DNA from: a virus
DNA: 38,530 nucleotides
Direction: 5' to 3' (one strand)
IMG/VR virus record: IMGVR_UViG_3300046010_011716
Span: 1 to 38,530 of that record
Made by a program: the position numbers and the translations under genes. The notes under the pieces are model-generated. The model was not told where the DNA came from and made no database searches. It saw nothing but the letters and a program-made list of their open reading frames with translations. Of this stretch, positions 23,330 to 34,030 are shown one piece after another. Numbering within the stretch: the stretch's first letter is position 1; each line of letters opens with the position of its first letter.

Positions 23330-23364
23330 CGACCCCCTATTCCGGTAGGGGGTCGTTTCTTTTT
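23330..23364 (+). terminator. Intrinsic terminator of gene 32
   Basis: CGACCCCCTA (23330-23339) pairs perfectly with TAGGGGGTCG (23346-23355), then TTTCTTTTT. Confidence 0.9.
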
Positions 23365-24988
23365 ATACTGTACTTTGTCTCCACGAAGGAAGTCCATTCA
23401 ATGGCGGAGCAAATTGTTTTATTCCTCTAGTGGATGTTATTTTTTCTACGCCAAGTATGGTTTCTTCTGGGCTTTGAAGTTCGTTTGAAACTGCCGTTGG
23501 TTTTGGTTGTTTTTTATCGGCGTTTCTAATAGTCCTCATGTGTTCTATTTCTTCCTTTTCTACTTCTAATAGATTCTTTGTTTTATTGTTTTGATCTATT
23601 GATTTGAGTGCAGGAAGAGATGATATGTTTCCTTGGTCAATAAAAGAATTAATTTTTCTATTGATTTTTGTTTTTTCCATAGGACTATTATCTGAACTTG
23701 TAAGTAGATTTGGAAGAATACTTTTTGGTATTATTACTTCTGGTTCTTTTTCGCCAATCATTGCCAATGTTGGTTTTGAGACTATACCACCAGATTCAAA
23801 TGCAGGAACATTTGTAACATTATTGGATTGTAGATAATTTGATATTGTTCTATGCTGTAAAACATTTTTAATAGAACTAAATCTGTTTATTATTGGTTGA
23901 TTAATTTCAGACGATAAGTCAAAGTATTTTGGTTCCTTGAAAAAAGTCACATTATTATCAATAAATGCATTGTTGTTTGAAACATCTTGAACTATTGCAT
24001 TTGTTGTGTTTACTGTATTTTTTTCAATTCTAGTGCTATTGTTGGTAACCGGATTACTTTGATTTGTAATGGCACTGTTGTTGGTAACCGGATTACTTTG
24101 ATTTGTAATGGCACTGTTGTTGGTAACCGCATTACTTTGGTTTGTAATAATACTGTTGGTAACCGGATTACTTTGGTTTGTGATGATACTGTTGTTGGTA
24201 ACCGGATTACTTTGGTTTGTAATAATACTGTTGGTAACCGGATTACTTTGGTTTGTGATGATACTGTTGTTGGTAACCGGATTACTTTGGTTTGTAATGG
24301 AACTGTTGTTGGTAACCGGATTACTTTGGTTTGTAATATCGGAATTGTTAGTGATATTATTTTCTGTCCGCAATATCACATCATCGCTATTTGTTAAAAA
24401 CGTATATGGTTTTATGAAGAAATTATTTAAAACTTTATTTTCTTTTTGAATAAAATTTTGATTTGGTTTTGTATTAGATTTGTAATTTTCAATAATTTTA
24501 ACATATTCTTTTATAAAATTATTTTTAACATTTGAAACCTCTGTAGTATTGTTTTTGTTTACTACTTTGCTTTCGTTAAATTGTGGTGAATTTATATTCG
24601 TATTTTGAATTCTATTGATTCCGTAATTAATAAAATTTACAGGTTTTACTAATTCCGGTGTAACATGGTCTTCGTATGAATTATTGAAATACAGTTGAAG
24701 CGGTATATCATTTTTTTTTATATCAATGTTATATGATTTGTTATTTTTCAGAGATTTTACAGTTTTCTTGTAATTTCTCGTCTTTTTATCTTGAGGTAAA
24801 GCAATTGTTATATTGATATCTTCTGGTTTTTCTGTTGCAGTTCCTGCACCATTTGGTAATGGAGCAGTTTCTGTGTCAGTAGGAAGTATAACATTAGACG
24901 GAAGACTCACATTAGAGGACAATGAAAGAGAACTTCCAAATAGTTTAAGAATTTCTTTTTTAAGTTTTGGTAAATTTTTTTCTTTCAT
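23363..24988 (-). CDS. Asn-rich repeat protein with tape-measure-like motif
   Basis: A 541-residue protein. Residues about 217-317 hold eight tandem copies of ITNQSNPVTNNS (12 or 13 residues). Residues about 396-420 contain GGIVSKPTLAMIGE followed by PEVIIP, the GG.v..PT.a.vGE.gPE.viP signature common near the end of tape-measure and related tail proteins. Its length is close to T4 gp29 (590) and it follows the gp26/frameshift unit, where a tape measure belongs. Against this, most of it is Asn/Ser-rich, not helical. Tail-associated, tape-measure candidate. Confidence 0.5.
   Translation of the reverse strand: MKEKNLPKLKKEILKLFGSSLSLSSNVSLPSNVILPTDTETAPLPNGAGTATEKPEDINITIALPQDKKTRNYKKTVKSLKNNKSYNIDIKKNDIPLQLYFNNSYEDHVTPELVKPVNFINYGINRIQNTNINSPQFNESKVVNKNNTTEVSNVKNNFIKEYVKIIENYKSNTKPNQNFIQKENKVLNNFFIKPYTFLTNSDDVILRTENNITNNSDITNQSNPVTNNSSITNQSNPVTNNSIITNQSNPVTNSIITNQSNPVTNNSIITNQSNPVTNSIITNQSNAVTNNSAITNQSNPVTNNSAITNQSNPVTNNSTRIEKNTVNTTNAIVQDVSNNNAFIDNNVTFFKEPKYFDLSSEINQPIINRFSSIKNVLQHRTISNYLQSNNVTNVPAFESGGIVSKPTLAMIGEKEPEVIIPKSILPNLLTSSDNSPMEKTKINRKINSFIDQGNISSLPALKSIDQNNKTKNLLEVEKEEIEHMRTIRNADKKQPKPTAVSNELQSPEETILGVEKITSTRGIKQFAPPLNGLPSWRQSTV
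24038..24340. repeat. Eight-copy 36/39-bp tandem repeat within a gene
   Basis: On the plus strand each unit contains TAACCGGATTACTTTG; one copy has C for G. Unit length alternates between 39 and 36 bp by loss of one Asn codon, so the frame is always kept. This is typical of slippage-prone coding repeats. Confidence 0.9.
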
Positions 24989-25153
24989 TTATCTTCCTCT
25001 TCTGCTGTTCATTGCCCTCATCATGTTCTGCTTGTTCATAAGTCTTAGATTTTCTTCTTCTATATGCTGCCTCAGCGATTCCACATAAATGTCTCTTTCC
25101 CAAGGTATCATTGATTCTAATTCCGTCAATGAGTAGTTATACATGTGTATCAT
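24989..25153 (-). CDS. Tail assembly chaperone T-like domain
   Basis: A 54-residue frame from ATG 25153 (MIHMYNYSLTELESMIPWER, then DIYVESLRQHIEEENLRLMN), ending right before the ATG of the 541-residue gene (TAA-ATG). The frame stays open upstream into the end of gp26, in the -1 frame. So it is probably made as the C-terminal part of a 305-residue gp26 fusion by frameshifting, and perhaps also alone. The MPWERxxY pattern is typical of the T part of tail assembly chaperones. Confidence 0.65.
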   Translation of the reverse strand: MIHMYNYSLTELESMIPWERDIYVESLRQHIEEENLRLMNKQNMMRAMNSRRGR

Positions 25154-25200
25154 TTTGAATGTTAAATCAAAATAGGTATTGAGACTATTGTGGCTGAGGC

Positions 25201-25905
25201 TTATCCGAAAAAATCACGAATACCTCGTAACACTACCTTTCTTTCTACTCCATCACTTGTCGTATATGGCATTTCTTGTTCAATTCTTGGCATTGTTGCA
25301 AAAAATTCAATTATTTTGTCAAATTGAACCTTTGACATATTGTCTACGAATTCTTTTATCTCTTCTTTATTCTTGTTTTCGCATTCTATTCGTTCCGTTG
25401 GTGTTTCGATATAATCAACACACGATACTGCAAGATCGTAAAAATCCATAAGAGACATATCAGATGTTTCGTTTTCTATAAACATATTAAGTGATGGATA
25501 TTTCATACAAACAAACAAATCATCATCTAATTTTAATTTATTCGTATGGGATTTGAAGGTTTTAACTTTAATCTTATCCAAATCAATTACCAGTTTGATC
25601 TTTTCATTTGTATGCGGACAAACCAGAAAAGGTTCAACAATTTCTCCTACCGATTTTGATCTTAGTTTTAAAAACAAATATTCTAAATCAAATATTGGTA
25701 TACTTCCTGCGTCTTTTAATTCAAAGCAGGACTCTACTAATTCTTTGACTGCCATTAATATTTCTTTTTCTTTTCCGGTTTCCTGTACCATTAATAAAGT
25801 TTTTTCATCTTTAACTAAAAACGGTCTAAACCATATTTTTTTGTTTGTTGATGGTACAGTTTCTGAGTATTTCGGTCTATTTCCTAATAAGTCAACTAAT
25901 TTCAT
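25201..25905 (-). CDS. 26: Baseplate hub assembly protein gp26
   Basis: A 234-residue homologue of T4 gp26, required to assemble the central baseplate hub. Family pattern: IWFRPFLVKDEKTLLMV, DLEYLFLKLRSKSVGE and FLVCPHTNEK. It is the first partner of the predicted frameshift pair; its short C-terminus RDFFG is where slippage occurs. Lies 11 nt after gp54-like on the minus strand. By analogy with tail chaperones it may act on the tape measure, which is an inference. Confidence 0.8.
   Translation of the reverse strand: MKLVDLLGNRPKYSETVPSTNKKIWFRPFLVKDEKTLLMVQETGKEKEILMAVKELVESCFELKDAGSIPIFDLEYLFLKLRSKSVGEIVEPFLVCPHTNEKIKLVIDLDKIKVKTFKSHTNKLKLDDDLFVCMKYPSLNMFIENETSDMSLMDFYDLAVSCVDYIETPTERIECENKNKEEIKEFVDNMSKVQFDKIIEFFATMPRIEQEMPYTTSDGVERKVVLRGIRDFFG
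25207..25213 (-). other. Programmed -1 frameshift site
   Basis: The last codons of gp26 read GAT TTT TTC GGA TAA, giving the canonical X-XXY-YYZ heptamer T-TTT-TTC two codons before the stop. A -1 slip joins an open frame of 72 more codons ending at 24989. Six nt downstream, GCCTCAGC (minus strand, 25200-25193) can pair with GCTGAGGC (25076-25069), a possible long-range stimulator. Confidence 0.65.
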
Positions 25906-25916
25906 AATATCTCCAA

Positions 25917-26570
25917 TTAAATAAATTCATATTCTTTGAATGCAAAAATTACAACAAATGTAGCATATCCTGTCGCTTCAGAAGACATTTGTGTTGGTGT
26001 TATGGTCAGGGGGAATGCATTTTTCAATGTAATGGTGCATGTTTGTTGTGCTTGATTTTCTACCGCAAGAGGATATATTTTAACAGTTCCTGTAAAGGTA
26101 TTAAAACCATTAGAGTAATCTGAATACTGTGTTGTTCTTATTGTTCTACTTGTACCAGCTAAAACATCAAATATATTACCCACAGAGGGACCACCCAATC
26201 GCTCCAAAGCACTCACCCCAACTGGATCAGCATCTTCTGTTGATTTTGGTGGAATAATGGTATCCATCCAGTTTTCAAAAAACCTTCTTTCTGCCCAGTC
26301 CTGATAAATTATAAAGGACATTGCACATTCACCATATTCTCTTCTAACTGGTAATTGTAAAATTGGCCCCCACGGACTATATGGTGCAGTACTAAATGAT
26401 CTTTGAGGCAAAGTTACCGATTCTGGATAGCACGATAAACTATTCAATTTACCATCTACCATCTGAACTGCATATTTTCCGGGTTGCTGAATTCCTTTTC
26501 TTGCAATTACAGCATTTCTAAACTGAGTAATAGTGGTTGCTTGATAATCTGGAAGATTAATATTTGACAT
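25917..26570 (-). CDS. 54: Baseplate-tail tube initiator, gp54/gp19-like
   Basis: A 217-residue protein with the tail-tube fold pattern seen in T4 gp19 and its baseplate paralogues (PESVTLPQRSFSTAPYSPWG, YGECAMSFIIYQDW, FENWMDTI, TITLKNAFPLTITP). Within this gene group (gp26, gp4, gp48, gp53) the likely role is gp54, where tube polymerisation starts on the baseplate. Shorter than T4 gp54 (320). It could instead be the tail tube protein itself; gene order favours gp54. Confidence 0.6.
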   Translation of the reverse strand: MSNINLPDYQATTITQFRNAVIARKGIQQPGKYAVQMVDGKLNSLSCYPESVTLPQRSFSTAPYSPWGPILQLPVRREYGECAMSFIIYQDWAERRFFENWMDTIIPPKSTEDADPVGVSALERLGGPSVGNIFDVLAGTSRTIRTTQYSDYSNGFNTFTGTVKIYPLAVENQAQQTCTITLKNAFPLTITPTQMSSEATGYATFVVIFAFKEYEFI

Positions 26571-26571
26571 T

Positions 26572-27003
26572 TTAGAATAGATCCTGTTCTGTTAAAATTT
26601 TGAATATTATTCCCTTTTCGGTGCAATAATTTTTTGCTGCTTCCCACTTTGCAGTATTTATTGCATATGTCATATTTTCCATTAATATTGTTTTTTTGTG
26701 TTTTTTATTGTGTTCTGGTTGTTTTGTTTGCTTTAGGGGTTTTATTTCTATTAACATAGTTTCAACTATTCCGTCTTTGTTTTTTGCTTCTATAAGGAAA
26801 TCTGGAATATAAAAATGGACTTTATTGTCCATCGGAGAAACATAAGGTATTCGTATTGCCTCAAATGCCCATCTTACTATATTTTTGTTGCTATCCAGAT
26901 ACTTACAAAATCTTCTTTCCCAGAGAGAACGGCATAAAATTGAATTAATATTACCTATATATTTTGTGGGATTATTAGGTATGTATTTAGTCTTGTATGC
27001 CAT
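26572..27003 (-). CDS. 4: Head completion protein gp4
   Basis: A 143-residue T4 gp4 (gp50/65) homologue. Pattern: CRSLWERRFCKYLDSNKNIV, IPYVSPMDNKVHFYIPDFLI and LIEIKPLKQ, which is a nuclease-like (TnsA-type) fold with possible catalytic E/D/ExK residues. gp4 acts in head completion before tail joining. It starts 21 bp from the divergent gene 48, so the promoters of each must overlap the other's 5' end. Confidence 0.8.
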   Translation of the reverse strand: MAYKTKYIPNNPTKYIGNINSILCRSLWERRFCKYLDSNKNIVRWAFEAIRIPYVSPMDNKVHFYIPDFLIEAKNKDGIVETMLIEIKPLKQTKQPEHNKKHKKTILMENMTYAINTAKWEAAKNYCTEKGIIFKILTEQDLF

Positions 27004-27923: not shown

Positions 27924-28997
27924 ATGTACTTCGACTATTTTCCAACACTTGAATATAAATTTCAAAACGGTAATACTTTAGAATTGATTGATATTTTCAG
28001 AAAAGTATCATTTACTCAGACTACACTAGCGAATGATTCGATTTTTGACACCTATTATGTAACAAATGGTGCAAATGCAGAAATCACTTCTTTTAATTTG
28101 TATAGCAGCAGTCAATATTCATGGGTACTGTTTTCTTCCAATAGAATGCTAAATCCTCATACTGACTGGCCTAGGGAATATACATCCTTTCTTACCGAAT
28201 TAAATTCAAAATATAATGGAACTGCATATTACATATGCAGAATACCCGATTTGCTTCCCGGCGATGTGATGATTAAAATAACAAAAGCTTCTTGCTCGGG
28301 TACAACTGCCAATGAAGTTTATACCAGTTGTGTTTTTTCATATGAAAGTCCTATAGTCACCTATAAAATAGTAAAAGAGTGGAATCAAAAATTTAGATAT
28401 TTGGTAGCAGTCGGCGGAGGAAGTGGTTCTTTTTCTGTAAATGATACATTTGCAATTCTTAGAAAAGATTCAAATGGCGATTATAAAGCAGTAAATTTCA
28501 GAACACCCGACCCTGATGTAGTGTATACAGATAAAGTAACAGGCCCTGATGGATATACTAATATAACCATCGATGGTAATGAATTCACTATATTCAGAAT
28601 AGCAAAAATAGATGAAGAGAAAAACGCAGCAACACAATTCATGAATAGCGGTGCAGTAGAATCGCCCTATAGAAAAGTCAGTTCACTTAATACTGCTGGA
28701 TCTCTTACTGCATATTATTCAAATTCCAATACTAATATTAATAGTTACCAATCAACTACTCCTGTATTTGGAAATGCAGATGATTTTTCTGGTACTTTAT
28801 TGGATGCATATGTTCTCGGTGTATTGCCTTCATCAATAACAGTAAAGACACCTTTGATTCTTCAATTAGAGGAAAACGAAAAAAGATATTCTGTTAGGGC
28901 ATTGAAACCCAGATACCTTGAGGGCACAATTGGTTTATTTGAAAAAGCGATAAATAGTAATCAAGGAAGAGTTCTTTCTATAGAACTAAATGTATAA
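27924..28997 (+). CDS. 53: Baseplate wedge protein gp53
   Basis: A 357-residue protein. The N-terminal part (MYFDYFPTLEYKF, LELIDIFRKVSF, YSSSQYSWVLFSSNRMLNPH, DWPREY) is the T4 gp53 domain, which joins wedges around the hub. T4 gp53 is 196 residues; the extra 160 residues here are a domain also seen as an extension in marine relatives. The stop overlaps the next start (TAATG). Confidence 0.85.
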   Translation: MYFDYFPTLEYKFQNGNTLELIDIFRKVSFTQTTLANDSIFDTYYVTNGANAEITSFNLYSSSQYSWVLFSSNRMLNPHTDWPREYTSFLTELNSKYNGTAYYICRIPDLLPGDVMIKITKASCSGTTANEVYTSCVFSYESPIVTYKIVKEWNQKFRYLVAVGGGSGSFSVNDTFAILRKDSNGDYKAVNFRTPDPDVVYTDKVTGPDGYTNITIDGNEFTIFRIAKIDEEKNAATQFMNSGAVESPYRKVSSLNTAGSLTAYYSNSNTNINSYQSTTPVFGNADDFSGTLLDAYVLGVLPSSITVKTPLILQLEENEKRYSVRALKPRYLEGTIGLFEKAINSNQGRVLSIELNV

Positions 28998-31900
28998 TGG
29001 CTGAACAAAATATTGAATCTTTAACATCCGGTTCTCGTACTCCATCTTTTTTAGTCGGTGTAACTATAGAAAGAAAAGACGGAAAGGGAATTTTTGATTT
29101 GTTTTCAAATCAAAGCATAGGAAAGGGAAATGAACTATTAACTGAAATTAAAATAGTTCAAAGTATATTTAATCCCTATATTTCTGGTTACATTGAATTA
29201 TATGACAAAGGTGATTGGGTAGGCGAACTGAATATAACTGGTTTTGAAACAATAACATTTAAATTTGGTGCAGATGCAGAATCTCAAAAAACCAAAGAAG
29301 TAAAAGCAAGAATTTACGAAATAAAACTAATAAATGATTTAACTCGTTCTCCTAAATTAAATGTTATTGAAAAAGCAAATTTATATAGATTAGAGTTCAT
29401 GTCTGAACAGATATTTGATTCTCAATTTACAGAAAATTTCCTACAGAATAAAGATTTCGTTGGAGTAATTTCCAAATCAACAGAATCGAATTCCAAGATC
29501 AAAGGTCTGATAAATGAAATTTCAGATAAGTACAATCTAAAACCAATAGAAATTCAAGAAACACAAAACGGCGTTTGGATCAAAAAAGACGAAATATCAA
29601 TTTCAGTTAGTAATGAAAAAGGACAATTTGAAATTGTACATCTATTAAATTATGTTACAAATTATGCTATTTCTCCAGAAAATCCATATGCTGTTAATTT
29701 CTTCTTTTGGCAAGATACAGATGGTTGGCATTTTAAATCGATAGAAAAATTAATAAACGAACAAAAAGATAAAAGTGATGACGAACTAACTTACTTTGTT
29801 CTTGGGACTGAAGATGAAGTAGATCCAAAAAGAGTAAGATCGATGGTTGTCAACAACCAATACAATTCTTTAAGTCTACTAAACGATAGAACACTTACTA
29901 GTTTTTACAAAAGAATAGAACCCGACTTTACTAATCCATATTCCGATTTCTTAAGTTCCTCTGATGGATTCACATATGATATTATAGATTATGACTATCA
30001 TCGAGACTTCAATAAAGTATCCCACATAGAATCTAATAAATTAGTATCTGAGTCATTAGATACCAAATCATTACATAAGGGCTCATATAATTCTCTGACC
30101 CGTTTGTATGATGATCTTAGTTCGTTCTATGACTCTAAAAAATATAATACTCCATTTCAGCACTGGATACAACAATCTGCCGAGCGTGGATTTGGTGCAA
30201 GACCAGACCAAACAGCAACCATTTGGTGGGATTATCTAGGAAGAACCGCCGATTCTAGATGGTCGAATGTAACATGGCAAGCTCAATTTGATCTGTGCGA
30301 GTTGGATTTCTTAAAGTTCAATGACATATACACTAAGATAAGAGAACCATTAAAGAGCAAACGTGAACTATTCAGTCACAAAAAGAATATAAAAAGAAAA
30401 TGGGAAGCGTATAGATGTGCAGTATGTTGTCTTGGATCTTCTAATTATGGTGGAACTGGTGATATTAAATTACTGAATGAATTCCGAGATACGAGTGGAA
30501 TTACTTTCAATATTCTATTCGGCGCTACTGGTATATTTTCGGATGTTGGTACTGAGTATAAAATTGCTGCGGCAGGATCATTTACTGATGCGGTTAACTA
30601 TGATATCAGAGATACTAAGAGCGAAAATGGTCTGACTCTTTCTTATGATTTCACCAAGGAACCATATAATAAAACAATTGGTGAATTCTATAATATCAAA
30701 GAAGAAATACCAAACTTTGTTAAGTATTCATTAGAACAAAGTATTGCTCTTTATGACCAAGCAATTTCTTTTTACGACAAAAGAATACAAATAATTCAAT
30801 CATTCTTGGATAATGCAGATGATTATATTTCTTCTGCAAACTCTTATATTGCACAGAATACAAAGAATAGTCCAATCACTGGTGAGCCAATTGATCCGAC
30901 AACCGGTCCGACTCTTCAAACTACATGGAACGGTCCAAAGGAATTTCCATTCAATCCAGAACCACCTGTATTTTATGCTCCTTGGATGTCTGGAACTCCG
31001 TTTCCATATAGACAACTACAAGAGGGAACATCTCTTTCATCCTATAATTATGTTGATGGTTTGGAATATATTTACGACGATGACCTTAAAATTATTGGTA
31101 TAAAAAATAAACCAACCAAACCAATACCTGATTTTGTTAGTAGATGCTCTAAAGAAAAATATATGCCAGGAACGGCACATATTGTAAGAAATTTAGATAC
31201 ATTTAGACTGACAAACTACGGATCAGGTACAAATCAAACATTTGCCGATGAAGTTTTCTTTATAGAACCATTAAAATACAACATTTCAACTAGTGGTATT
31301 TTAGAGGGTCTATATTACAATCAATTGAGTAATGATCCGTATTCTGTGCCTGATGGAATAGAATCACAATACGAAGAAGCATCTAGGAGTCTAAGACAGT
31401 GCATTGACGACGGAAACTGTTTCAATACATTATGTTTTGAACCTCTGATAATAGAAATTCAAAAACGAATAGGTGAGCAGGAAATACAAATTATAAAATT
31501 TGAAAGAGATTTATACGTTTATCTCAGAAATTTGGCAAGAGATACCTTCATACCAAAATGGAAAGAGATGTATTCTGAGTGGTGGAATAGAAAAGCATTC
31601 TTTATTTCTAAACCAGTTGGAACTAGTATTTTTACTGGAATAACTGGAGGTAGACAAAATAAATTAATTCAACCACTTTCCTTACAAAATATAAAATCAA
31701 TAAAGAGAAAAGAAATAAAAGGAAGCAGATACGAAATACTAGCAAAGTCTAAATTGGGTATAACTGGTGCTTCGGCCGGCCAGTGGTTATATGATATTTA
31801 CTTTGCAAATAATGCAGAAAATAATCCAAATGAGTATAAACCAGAAAATGGAAAAACATGGTGGGAAAAAGAAAACAATCACCCATATTATAGTCAGGGA

Positions 31901-34030
31901 TATGACACACGATATGGTAAATCTGCATTTGTTACAAAAAGAAAATTAAATTATTGGTATGAATATTACGATGCAAATCCTTTAAATAATAAACCATGGC
32001 AGACCGATAATGTTCTACCACTAAGCGACAGACAACAAAAACAAACCGCCTTTGTCATAGCAACAGAAAAACAAATGGAAGGTTTAGATTTAAATATCAC
32101 TAATTTGGGATATGCATTAACTCATCTGGAATATATGCAACCTATAGTCGAAGATGATTTTATAAATGCATTTAATATTTTTGATGAAAATATATCTGAA
32201 AAGAAACCACCTAATATTAAAAAGGAAGAAATAAGTTCATATGTAAGAATAGAATTTATTAGTCCAATAGGTCTGGATCGAATTGCTGATTTCCCAGATG
32301 GATTTGTTCGTGATTCAGGTTCCGAATATTTCTTACCATATCTTGTTCAATTAACTGCCGGACCAAATGGAAGACAAACAGTAAGAAATAACATTGCCAT
32401 TATTGGTATGGATCCATATGGATTTGATGTTGCAGTTAAGAAACAAAAAATAGAAAATAGGTACGAAGCAAGAGAATATTCTTGGTGGAACAAATACTCA
32501 CCCATTAATTTTGGTTCAGATTTGAGCGATGCTGGTATGGATCTTTGGCCAGAACAAGGTTTTAATGTAGAGACTCCGTATTATACAACAGATATAGAAA
32601 CAAGTATACCCCAAGTCAAAGATGGATATTCTTTTGAATATTATTATTGGGAACGTGGTGGACCAAATTCAAAAAATCCGGGATTTGAATCAAAGGGTAT
32701 AGACTCTCAATATAAGCAAACTGCTCTAGGTAGTGGTTATTTGATGTCTTCCCATAAAAAAATAAAACCACATAGATCTTGGTGGTCTTTCTATATTCCG
32801 ACAAATCTATTTGTTAAAAATAAATTATTCAATCCAAGTCTTGGATATGCAAGTGGTACATTAAATCAATTTTCTTTTAATAGTTTTTATGGTTATAATT
32901 CTGATGCTTGGTTTGGTCTTGGTACATATAGAGGTCCTCTTTTAGATTATTCTGTTTCAAATAATACTAATAACTATGGTTATTGGTATAATACTAATAC
33001 AAACGAACAATCAATTACTAATAACAATCGTTTTGATTCTCGCTGGATTGAACTCAATTATGGTGGAGATACCATACAACTATTGAATGAATATGATCTT
33101 AATGGTAAATTTATTAAGAGCAGAGCACTGGATGGAGAATCCGAAAATATATTACCACACACAGATGCTTCTATAGAAGAGAAGTATCCTGAACTGAAGC
33201 AGTATTTTGCAAATGATGTTTTGCATTGGTTATCCGCCGATTATGCACTGTATAGACCCGGTTTAGTCACAGAAGATCTATGGAAATACGATTTGAGCGG
33301 TGAAACAGATTATGGAATAATTACACCGCCCATAAATGAACCCAATTATGATCTCTTTGATCAAAATTTTGCTGCACAATTTATGGTTTATGCGAAGACA
33401 AATAATCTCTGCAATAAGTTTACCTGTGCAAATCCTTTGGGAATTACCGATTCTTCTGGTTGCTCGGAAGATAATCCATATTGCAATTGTCCGGCACAAG
33501 ACCAAATGCCAATAGAACCAGAACCCACATATCTGGAACTCTATAGTCTATACAATGAAATAAGGGAATGTGATTTAATTGAAGAGAATTTAGGCAAAGA
33601 GTATTTGGGTTGTATTTGGTCAGATCCAAATAACCCATGCAGTTGCAATTGTCCAGAAATAGGCAAAAAATTCGCAGAATATCTAAAATATACAAGAACT
33701 TATGCCACTTTCTGGGGAACTCCAGCACATGTTCCTTTAAATCGAATTGCTCTTATGAATCAGCTGTCTAGTCAACAGATGTCGATAACAGTTGCAGCAA
33801 CAGATAAAGTTAAGATTGGTGACATAATTCGCATATATCACGAAAACCCACAAACACCGACGCTATATTTAAATAGAGAAAAGGTATTAAGCGGAAAGTG
33901 GATGGTCATTGGTATGAACTACAAGTTCCTGAGAGAAACTGTGCAATATTTGGAATTAGTTCTGAGCAGAGATACATTACCCGTTTCCCCAGACATCGGA
34001 ATAAGCCCAATAACGGCATTTAAGATATAA
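28997..34030 (+). CDS. Giant baseplate hub protein, gp27-like ends
   Basis: A 1677-residue protein. Residues about 45-95 (EIKIVQSIFNPYISGYIELY ... ITFKFG) match the first domain of gp27/VgrG-type hub proteins. The last 80 residues (KVKIGDIIRIYHENPQ, LSGKWMVIGMNYKFL, YLELVLSRD) match the usual hub C-terminus. Between lie some 1400 residues rich in Asn, Tyr and Trp with Cys-rich patches (DNPYCNCPAQDQ; NPCSCNCPE). It occupies the place of T4 gene 5 after 53. No lysozyme motif seen. T4 gp27 has 391 residues, so a very large insertion is present. Confidence 0.65.
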   Translation: MAEQNIESLTSGSRTPSFLVGVTIERKDGKGIFDLFSNQSIGKGNELLTEIKIVQSIFNPYISGYIELYDKGDWVGELNITGFETITFKFGADAESQKTKEVKARIYEIKLINDLTRSPKLNVIEKANLYRLEFMSEQIFDSQFTENFLQNKDFVGVISKSTESNSKIKGLINEISDKYNLKPIEIQETQNGVWIKKDEISISVSNEKGQFEIVHLLNYVTNYAISPENPYAVNFFFWQDTDGWHFKSIEKLINEQKDKSDDELTYFVLGTEDEVDPKRVRSMVVNNQYNSLSLLNDRTLTSFYKRIEPDFTNPYSDFLSSSDGFTYDIIDYDYHRDFNKVSHIESNKLVSESLDTKSLHKGSYNSLTRLYDDLSSFYDSKKYNTPFQHWIQQSAERGFGARPDQTATIWWDYLGRTADSRWSNVTWQAQFDLCELDFLKFNDIYTKIREPLKSKRELFSHKKNIKRKWEAYRCAVCCLGSSNYGGTGDIKLLNEFRDTSGITFNILFGATGIFSDVGTEYKIAAAGSFTDAVNYDIRDTKSENGLTLSYDFTKEPYNKTIGEFYNIKEEIPNFVKYSLEQSIALYDQAISFYDKRIQIIQSFLDNADDYISSANSYIAQNTKNSPITGEPIDPTTGPTLQTTWNGPKEFPFNPEPPVFYAPWMSGTPFPYRQLQEGTSLSSYNYVDGLEYIYDDDLKIIGIKNKPTKPIPDFVSRCSKEKYMPGTAHIVRNLDTFRLTNYGSGTNQTFADEVFFIEPLKYNISTSGILEGLYYNQLSNDPYSVPDGIESQYEEASRSLRQCIDDGNCFNTLCFEPLIIEIQKRIGEQEIQIIKFERDLYVYLRNLARDTFIPKWKEMYSEWWNRKAFFISKPVGTSIFTGITGGRQNKLIQPLSLQNIKSIKRKEIKGSRYEILAKSKLGITGASAGQWLYDIYFANNAENNPNEYKPENGKTWWEKENNHPYYSQGYDTRYGKSAFVTKRKLNYWYEYYDANPLNNKPWQTDNVLPLSDRQQKQTAFVIATEKQMEGLDLNITNLGYALTHLEYMQPIVEDDFINAFNIFDENISEKKPPNIKKEEISSYVRIEFISPIGLDRIADFPDGFVRDSGSEYFLPYLVQLTAGPNGRQTVRNNIAIIGMDPYGFDVAVKKQKIENRYEAREYSWWNKYSPINFGSDLSDAGMDLWPEQGFNVETPYYTTDIETSIPQVKDGYSFEYYYWERGGPNSKNPGFESKGIDSQYKQTALGSGYLMSSHKKIKPHRSWWSFYIPTNLFVKNKLFNPSLGYASGTLNQFSFNSFYGYNSDAWFGLGTYRGPLLDYSVSNNTNNYGYWYNTNTNEQSITNNNRFDSRWIELNYGGDTIQLLNEYDLNGKFIKSRALDGESENILPHTDASIEEKYPELKQYFANDVLHWLSADYALYRPGLVTEDLWKYDLSGETDYGIITPPINEPNYDLFDQNFAAQFMVYAKTNNLCNKFTCANPLGITDSSGCSEDNPYCNCPAQDQMPIEPEPTYLELYSLYNEIRECDLIEENLGKEYLGCIWSDPNNPCSCNCPEIGKKFAEYLKYTRTYATFWGTPAHVPLNRIALMNQLSSQQMSITVAATDKVKIGDIIRIYHENPQTPTLYLNREKVLSGKWMVIGMNYKFLRETVQYLELVLSRDTLPVSPDIGISPITAFKI

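Follow-up and report, generated by a model that had tools for sequence, protein, structure and literature searches.

A conserved -1 frameshift site probably joins gp26 and gp51 into one tail assembly chaperone gene in an uncultured T4-like phage

In a T4-like phage, gp26 and the short open frame that follows it very probably form one tail assembly chaperone gene, joined by a -1 frameshift as in the G/GT gene of phage lambda. The DNA analysed, here called the window, is a 38,530-base IMG/VR virus fragment. A first-pass annotation had proposed a short and a long chaperone of the G/GT type produced through a -1 slip, and comparative evidence (the slippery heptamer, selection on the -1 frame and the architecture of T4 gp51) supports that proposal. 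The majority of ribosomes would end at the gp26 stop and release a 234-aa short form, and a minority would slip by -1 on T TTT TTC, with the Phe tRNAs in the P and A sites re-pairing on TTT, to give a 305-aa long form carrying an added gp51 domain. Together the two forms would keep the tape measure protein, encoded by the next gene, soluble and recruit tail tube subunits (compare lambda gpG/gpGT). We infer that slippage takes place, how efficient it is and that the products serve as chaperones.

Re-reading of the minus strand confirmed the gp26 end, the heptamer, the coordinates and the 72-codon -1 frame with MIPWERDIY that had been annotated at first pass (Table 1). The gene ends in ...GGT ATT CGT GAT TTT TTC GGA TAA, its frame-0 stop falling after the slip site. 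A -1 slip would be read as FF-RISLSHNSLNTYFDLTFKMIHMYNYSLTELESMIPWERDIYVESLRQHIEEENLRLMNKQNMMRAMNSRRGR with a stop at 24991-24989; counted from the heptamer, the -1 frame has 74 codons, made up of two re-read Phe codons and 72 others, MIPWERDIY included. The gp26 protein matched PF12322 (T4_baseplate; E 1.8e-57) and phrog_150 (baseplate hub; E 8.7e-59). The 54 residues that the short frame encodes from its ATG onward matched phrog_634 (E 6e-13), whose label, 'baseplate hub assembly catalyst', is that of cyanophage gp51. When the whole fusion was searched, the phrog_634 match at its end strengthened to E 1.3e-21 and phrog_150 matched over residues 9-276, indicating that the phrog_150 family already includes proteins with both parts. 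Window gp26 is 35-42% identical to cyanophage gp26, and its lineage is uncultured. An AlphaFold model of the short form (pLDDT 86) resembled gp26-type and 'baseplate hub assembly chaperone' models in a viral structure library; Foldseek against the PDB gave no significant match to the gp26 model, the HK97 tail assembly chaperone 2ob9 appearing at E 3.8 with a TM of 0.42 by target length. With a PF12322/phrog_150 part, a gp51-like extension and a -1 slippery site, the window gene can be assigned from its sequence to the T4-like gp26/gp51 chaperones.

Table 1. Features of the putative chaperone locus and its neighbours in the window.
Feature	Position	Strand	Remarks
Downstream gene, 541 aa, with C-terminal tape-measure motif GGIVSKPTLAMIGEKEPEVIIP	23363..24988	-	begins directly after the -1-frame stop
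-1-frame extension (gp51 domain), 72 codons + stop	24989..25206	-	phrog_634
Putative frameshift product gp26-gp51 (TAC-NC), 305 aa	24989..25905	-	colinear with T4 gp51; expression inferred
gp26-like gene, short chaperone form (TAC-N), 234 aa	25201..25905	-	PF12322 and phrog_150
Slippery heptamer T TTT TTC	25207..25213	-	10 bases before the gp26 stop; kept among relatives
Shine-Dalgarno-like GAGG, possible stimulator	25223..25226	-	9 bases upstream of the heptamer
Tail tube protein	25917..26570	-	phrog_45, E 8e-20; upstream of the chaperone, the expected order

The putative chaperone gene lies between the tail tube gene and a gene that we take from its motif to encode the tape measure protein, the position of the G/GT type in lambda. 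Most matches to the motif GGIVSKPTLAMIGEKEPEVIIP were to proteins annotated as tape measures (best E 8e-5). The order tube, gp26, gp51 and tape-measure-like gene is conserved, and in HTVC008M the annotated tape measure gene lies two genes after gp51. The tape-measure-like gene also holds an Asn/Ser-rich tandem repeat (ITNQSNPVTNNS; window 23990-24330), unusual for a helical ruler protein. Elsewhere in the window, a gp4-like head closure protein (phrog_218; 26572-27003) also matched the TnsA-like endonuclease family PF08722 (2.2e-21), and a very large plus-strand protein of 1677 aa is encoded in the baseplate region (28997-34030).

Conservation of the heptamer and the -1 frame, which the first-pass annotation had suggested checking in relatives, was borne out. 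A tblastn set of 107 gp26 copies, near-duplicates and the window itself counted, was grouped into 35 lineages below 85% identity. An in-frame heptamer was present at the gene end in 104 of the 107 copies (99 TTTTTTC, 4 TTTTTTT, 1 TTTTTTG), the three others being a truncated contig (L012), Vibrio phage K444 and Pectobacterium phage PM2. Every close relative with the gene end covered (49-100% identity) had both heptamer and -1 frame, as did cyanophage-type viral contigs and cultured phages of cyanobacteria, Pelagibacter, Methylophilales, Sinorhizobium, Rhizobium, Agrobacterium, Stenotrophomonas, Aeromonas and Vibrio. The codon preceding the Phe pair varied (Ser, Asp, Asn, Ala) and its third base was always T, and of the 39 Phe-Phe pairs at other sites in these genes only 2 were encoded as T TTT TTY. 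The open -1 frame spanned 58-75 codons in all 35 lineages; base composition puts the chance of a 55-codon frame at about 1.6% per lineage, and since the lineages are related such figures for heptamer and open frame are indicative and not strict probabilities. Judged on these alignments, heptamer and open frame together exceed chance, and the signal appears real and deeply conserved.

Several relatives depart from the common layout. In L010 (3669-3708) and L011, which fall within the window's lineage, the frame-0 stop has moved seven codons downstream of its usual place and the -1 frame is kept. Vibrio phage K444 (L106:3060-3255) is without the heptamer, and the ATG of its next frame overlaps the gp26 stop (TAATGATG); that frame matches phrog_9633, not phrog_634, and K444 possibly represents an independent loss of frameshifting. 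In Aeromonas phage AP1 (L108:3193-3369, MT713136) the gp51 domain is unannotated, and the -1 frame entered at T TTT TTC has no early ATG and matches phrog_634 (E 3.5e-12).

RNA folding around the slip site was scanned in 20 windows of 60 bases across the 35 lineages, using shuffles that kept dinucleotides and not the encoded protein, so that protein constraint may contribute to the scores. The 60-base window starting 5 bases after the heptamer had a mean folding z of -1.78, compared with -0.64 to +0.07 in the other 19, and z fell below -2 just downstream of the heptamer in 15 of 35 lineages. Flanking coding windows show no such peak, which argues against a general coding effect as its source. 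Folding was strong in several cyanophages and Vibrio phi-Grn1 and weak in the window's own clade, where no convincing conserved downstream structure was found (weak consensus, -0.8 kcal/mol). Upstream, the GAGG element was weakly favoured over synonymous recoding (-6.5 vs -5.2 kcal/mol); this is weak evidence of selection because a conserved (E/R/K/V)-Gly dipeptide already mostly implies the element, and a selected Shine-Dalgarno-like stimulator was set aside since the dipeptide accounts for most of the signal. A stem across the slip site, formed by the upstream GAGG and a downstream CCTC, was likewise rejected because pairs from the same lineage did not outperform mismatched pairs (p 0.64).

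The stretch from the heptamer to the ATG that usually comes first in the -1 frame (codon 20-21) bears on whether the short frame is entered from gp26 or has its own start. Mismatch rates by codon position in this stretch were 0.50, 0.41 and 0.62 in the -1 frame, matching the 0.50, 0.39 and 0.63 found upstream in gp26's own frame, and the stretch therefore evolves as -1-frame coding sequence. In three of the 35 lineages (L010, L027, L108) no ATG was found in the first 24 codons of the -1 frame. No Shine-Dalgarno sequence was detected before the short-frame ATGs of the window (+0.6 kcal/mol), as against -6.4 kcal/mol, a strong site, for gp26 and -6.0 kcal/mol for the 541-aa gene that follows. 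Some cyanophage lineages (L024, L043, L029) do carry a Shine-Dalgarno-like sequence ahead of the ATG at codon 21, with energies as low as -6.1 kcal/mol. The first-pass annotation had named two findings as speaking against a slip, namely relatives that keep the frame without the heptamer and a short frame with its own start and Shine-Dalgarno sequence; both were examined, and within the window's clade neither refutes it.

The Shine-Dalgarno-like sequences of those three cyanophage lineages would suit a situation in which some phages make both a frameshift product and a separately initiated small gp51. We consider this improbable, as the energy before the window ATGs lends it no support and Met at codon 21 can be conserved for protein reasons. 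It is very unlikely that gp51 is simply a separate small protein made from its own ATG, with an incidental heptamer. Although gp51 is annotated as its own gene in cyanophage records and the ATG at codon 20-21 is common, with a Shine-Dalgarno-like sequence in a few lineages, this reading is opposed by the lineages that lack the ATG, by the unmarked ATGs of the window, by the conservation, as -1-frame coding sequence, of 18 codons ahead of the ATG, and by maintenance of the heptamer over 35 lineages. Production of the long form by transcriptional slippage on the T run is less likely still: the AT-rich genome and the 6-7 T at the site would favour it, but polymerase slippage usually needs longer runs, six T followed by C are found in 99 of 104 copies in the fixed codon phase (NNT TTT TTC) that ribosomal slippage requires, and many lineages have an RNA folding peak downstream of the site. 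A -1 ribosomal frameshift is the best explanation because the heptamer is kept, the -1 frame is coding before the ATG, some lineages have no ATG, the window has no Shine-Dalgarno sequence there, and T4 gp51 corresponds to the fusion.

The window fusion is colinear over its whole length with T4 gp51 (249 aa), which matches phrog_150 over its full length and phrog_634 at its end. T4 gp26 (208 aa) ends at the equivalent of the window short form, and PF12322 is present in both T4 proteins. In T4 and Pectobacterium phage PM2, gp26 and gp51 are separate, divergently transcribed genes without a frameshift site, whereas the window has one frameshifted gene, and no gp51-like peptide was found in the PM2 -1 frame after gp26. 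With gp26 serving as short form and a full-length gp51 from its own gene as long form, T4-type phages appear to keep the two forms by other means, in line with the title of Vladimirov, Gautam and Davidson (2022). The T4-like chaperones of that study and the window gene share family (PF12322, phrog_150 and phrog_634) and gene position. Lambda gpG/gpGT and P2 E/E' (Xu, Hendrix and Duda) likewise comprise a short form and a -1 long form encoded between tail tube and tape measure genes. Family searches found no sequence homology of the window chaperone to those of lambda or P2. The lambda slippery sequence is G GGA AAG, in contrast to T TTT TTC in the window. In the chaperone locus of Vandenendeviridae and Andersonviridae, TAC-N ends in a polyT motif with a conserved -1 frameshift (PMC12846349); there the motif is GTTTTT and the phage families are others. 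More speculatively, a hairpin downstream of the slip site may set the ratio of short to long form in many marine T4-like phages and have been lost or replaced in the window's clade, and frameshifting may have been lost repeatedly, in the T4 group through separate genes and, perhaps, in K444 through a stop-start overlap; we regard this scenario as possible but doubtful.

An earlier study reportedly describes a -1 frameshift between gp26 and gp51 and identifies a non-frameshift variant, and its abstract is said to describe several T4-like groups in which frameshifting is conserved and a T4 group in which genes 26 and 51 are separate. This work (Vladimirov, Gautam and Davidson, Virology 2022), whose subject is T4-like tail assembly chaperones, appears among the references of PMC10885494 and of PMC12846349. 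The latter cites it on polyT frameshift signals in the TAC-N genes of such phages, and our open-literature search for a gp26/gp51 frameshift returned only citations of it. Going by that citation in PMC12846349, the first-pass remark that T4-like gp26 is not usually described as a frameshifting chaperone is out of date. The mechanism has been known since 2022, and the window is a new uncultured example that adds evidence on selection, RNA structure and breadth. Cyanophage gp51 seems to be without the first ~200 residues of T4 gp51 (Sullivan et al. 2010, PMC3037559); it would appear short because those residues are encoded in gp26 and probably joined to it by frameshifting. A single chaperone gene would then underlie the routine annotation of 'gp26 baseplate hub' and 'gp51 assembly catalyst' as distinct genes in cyanophages and their relatives.
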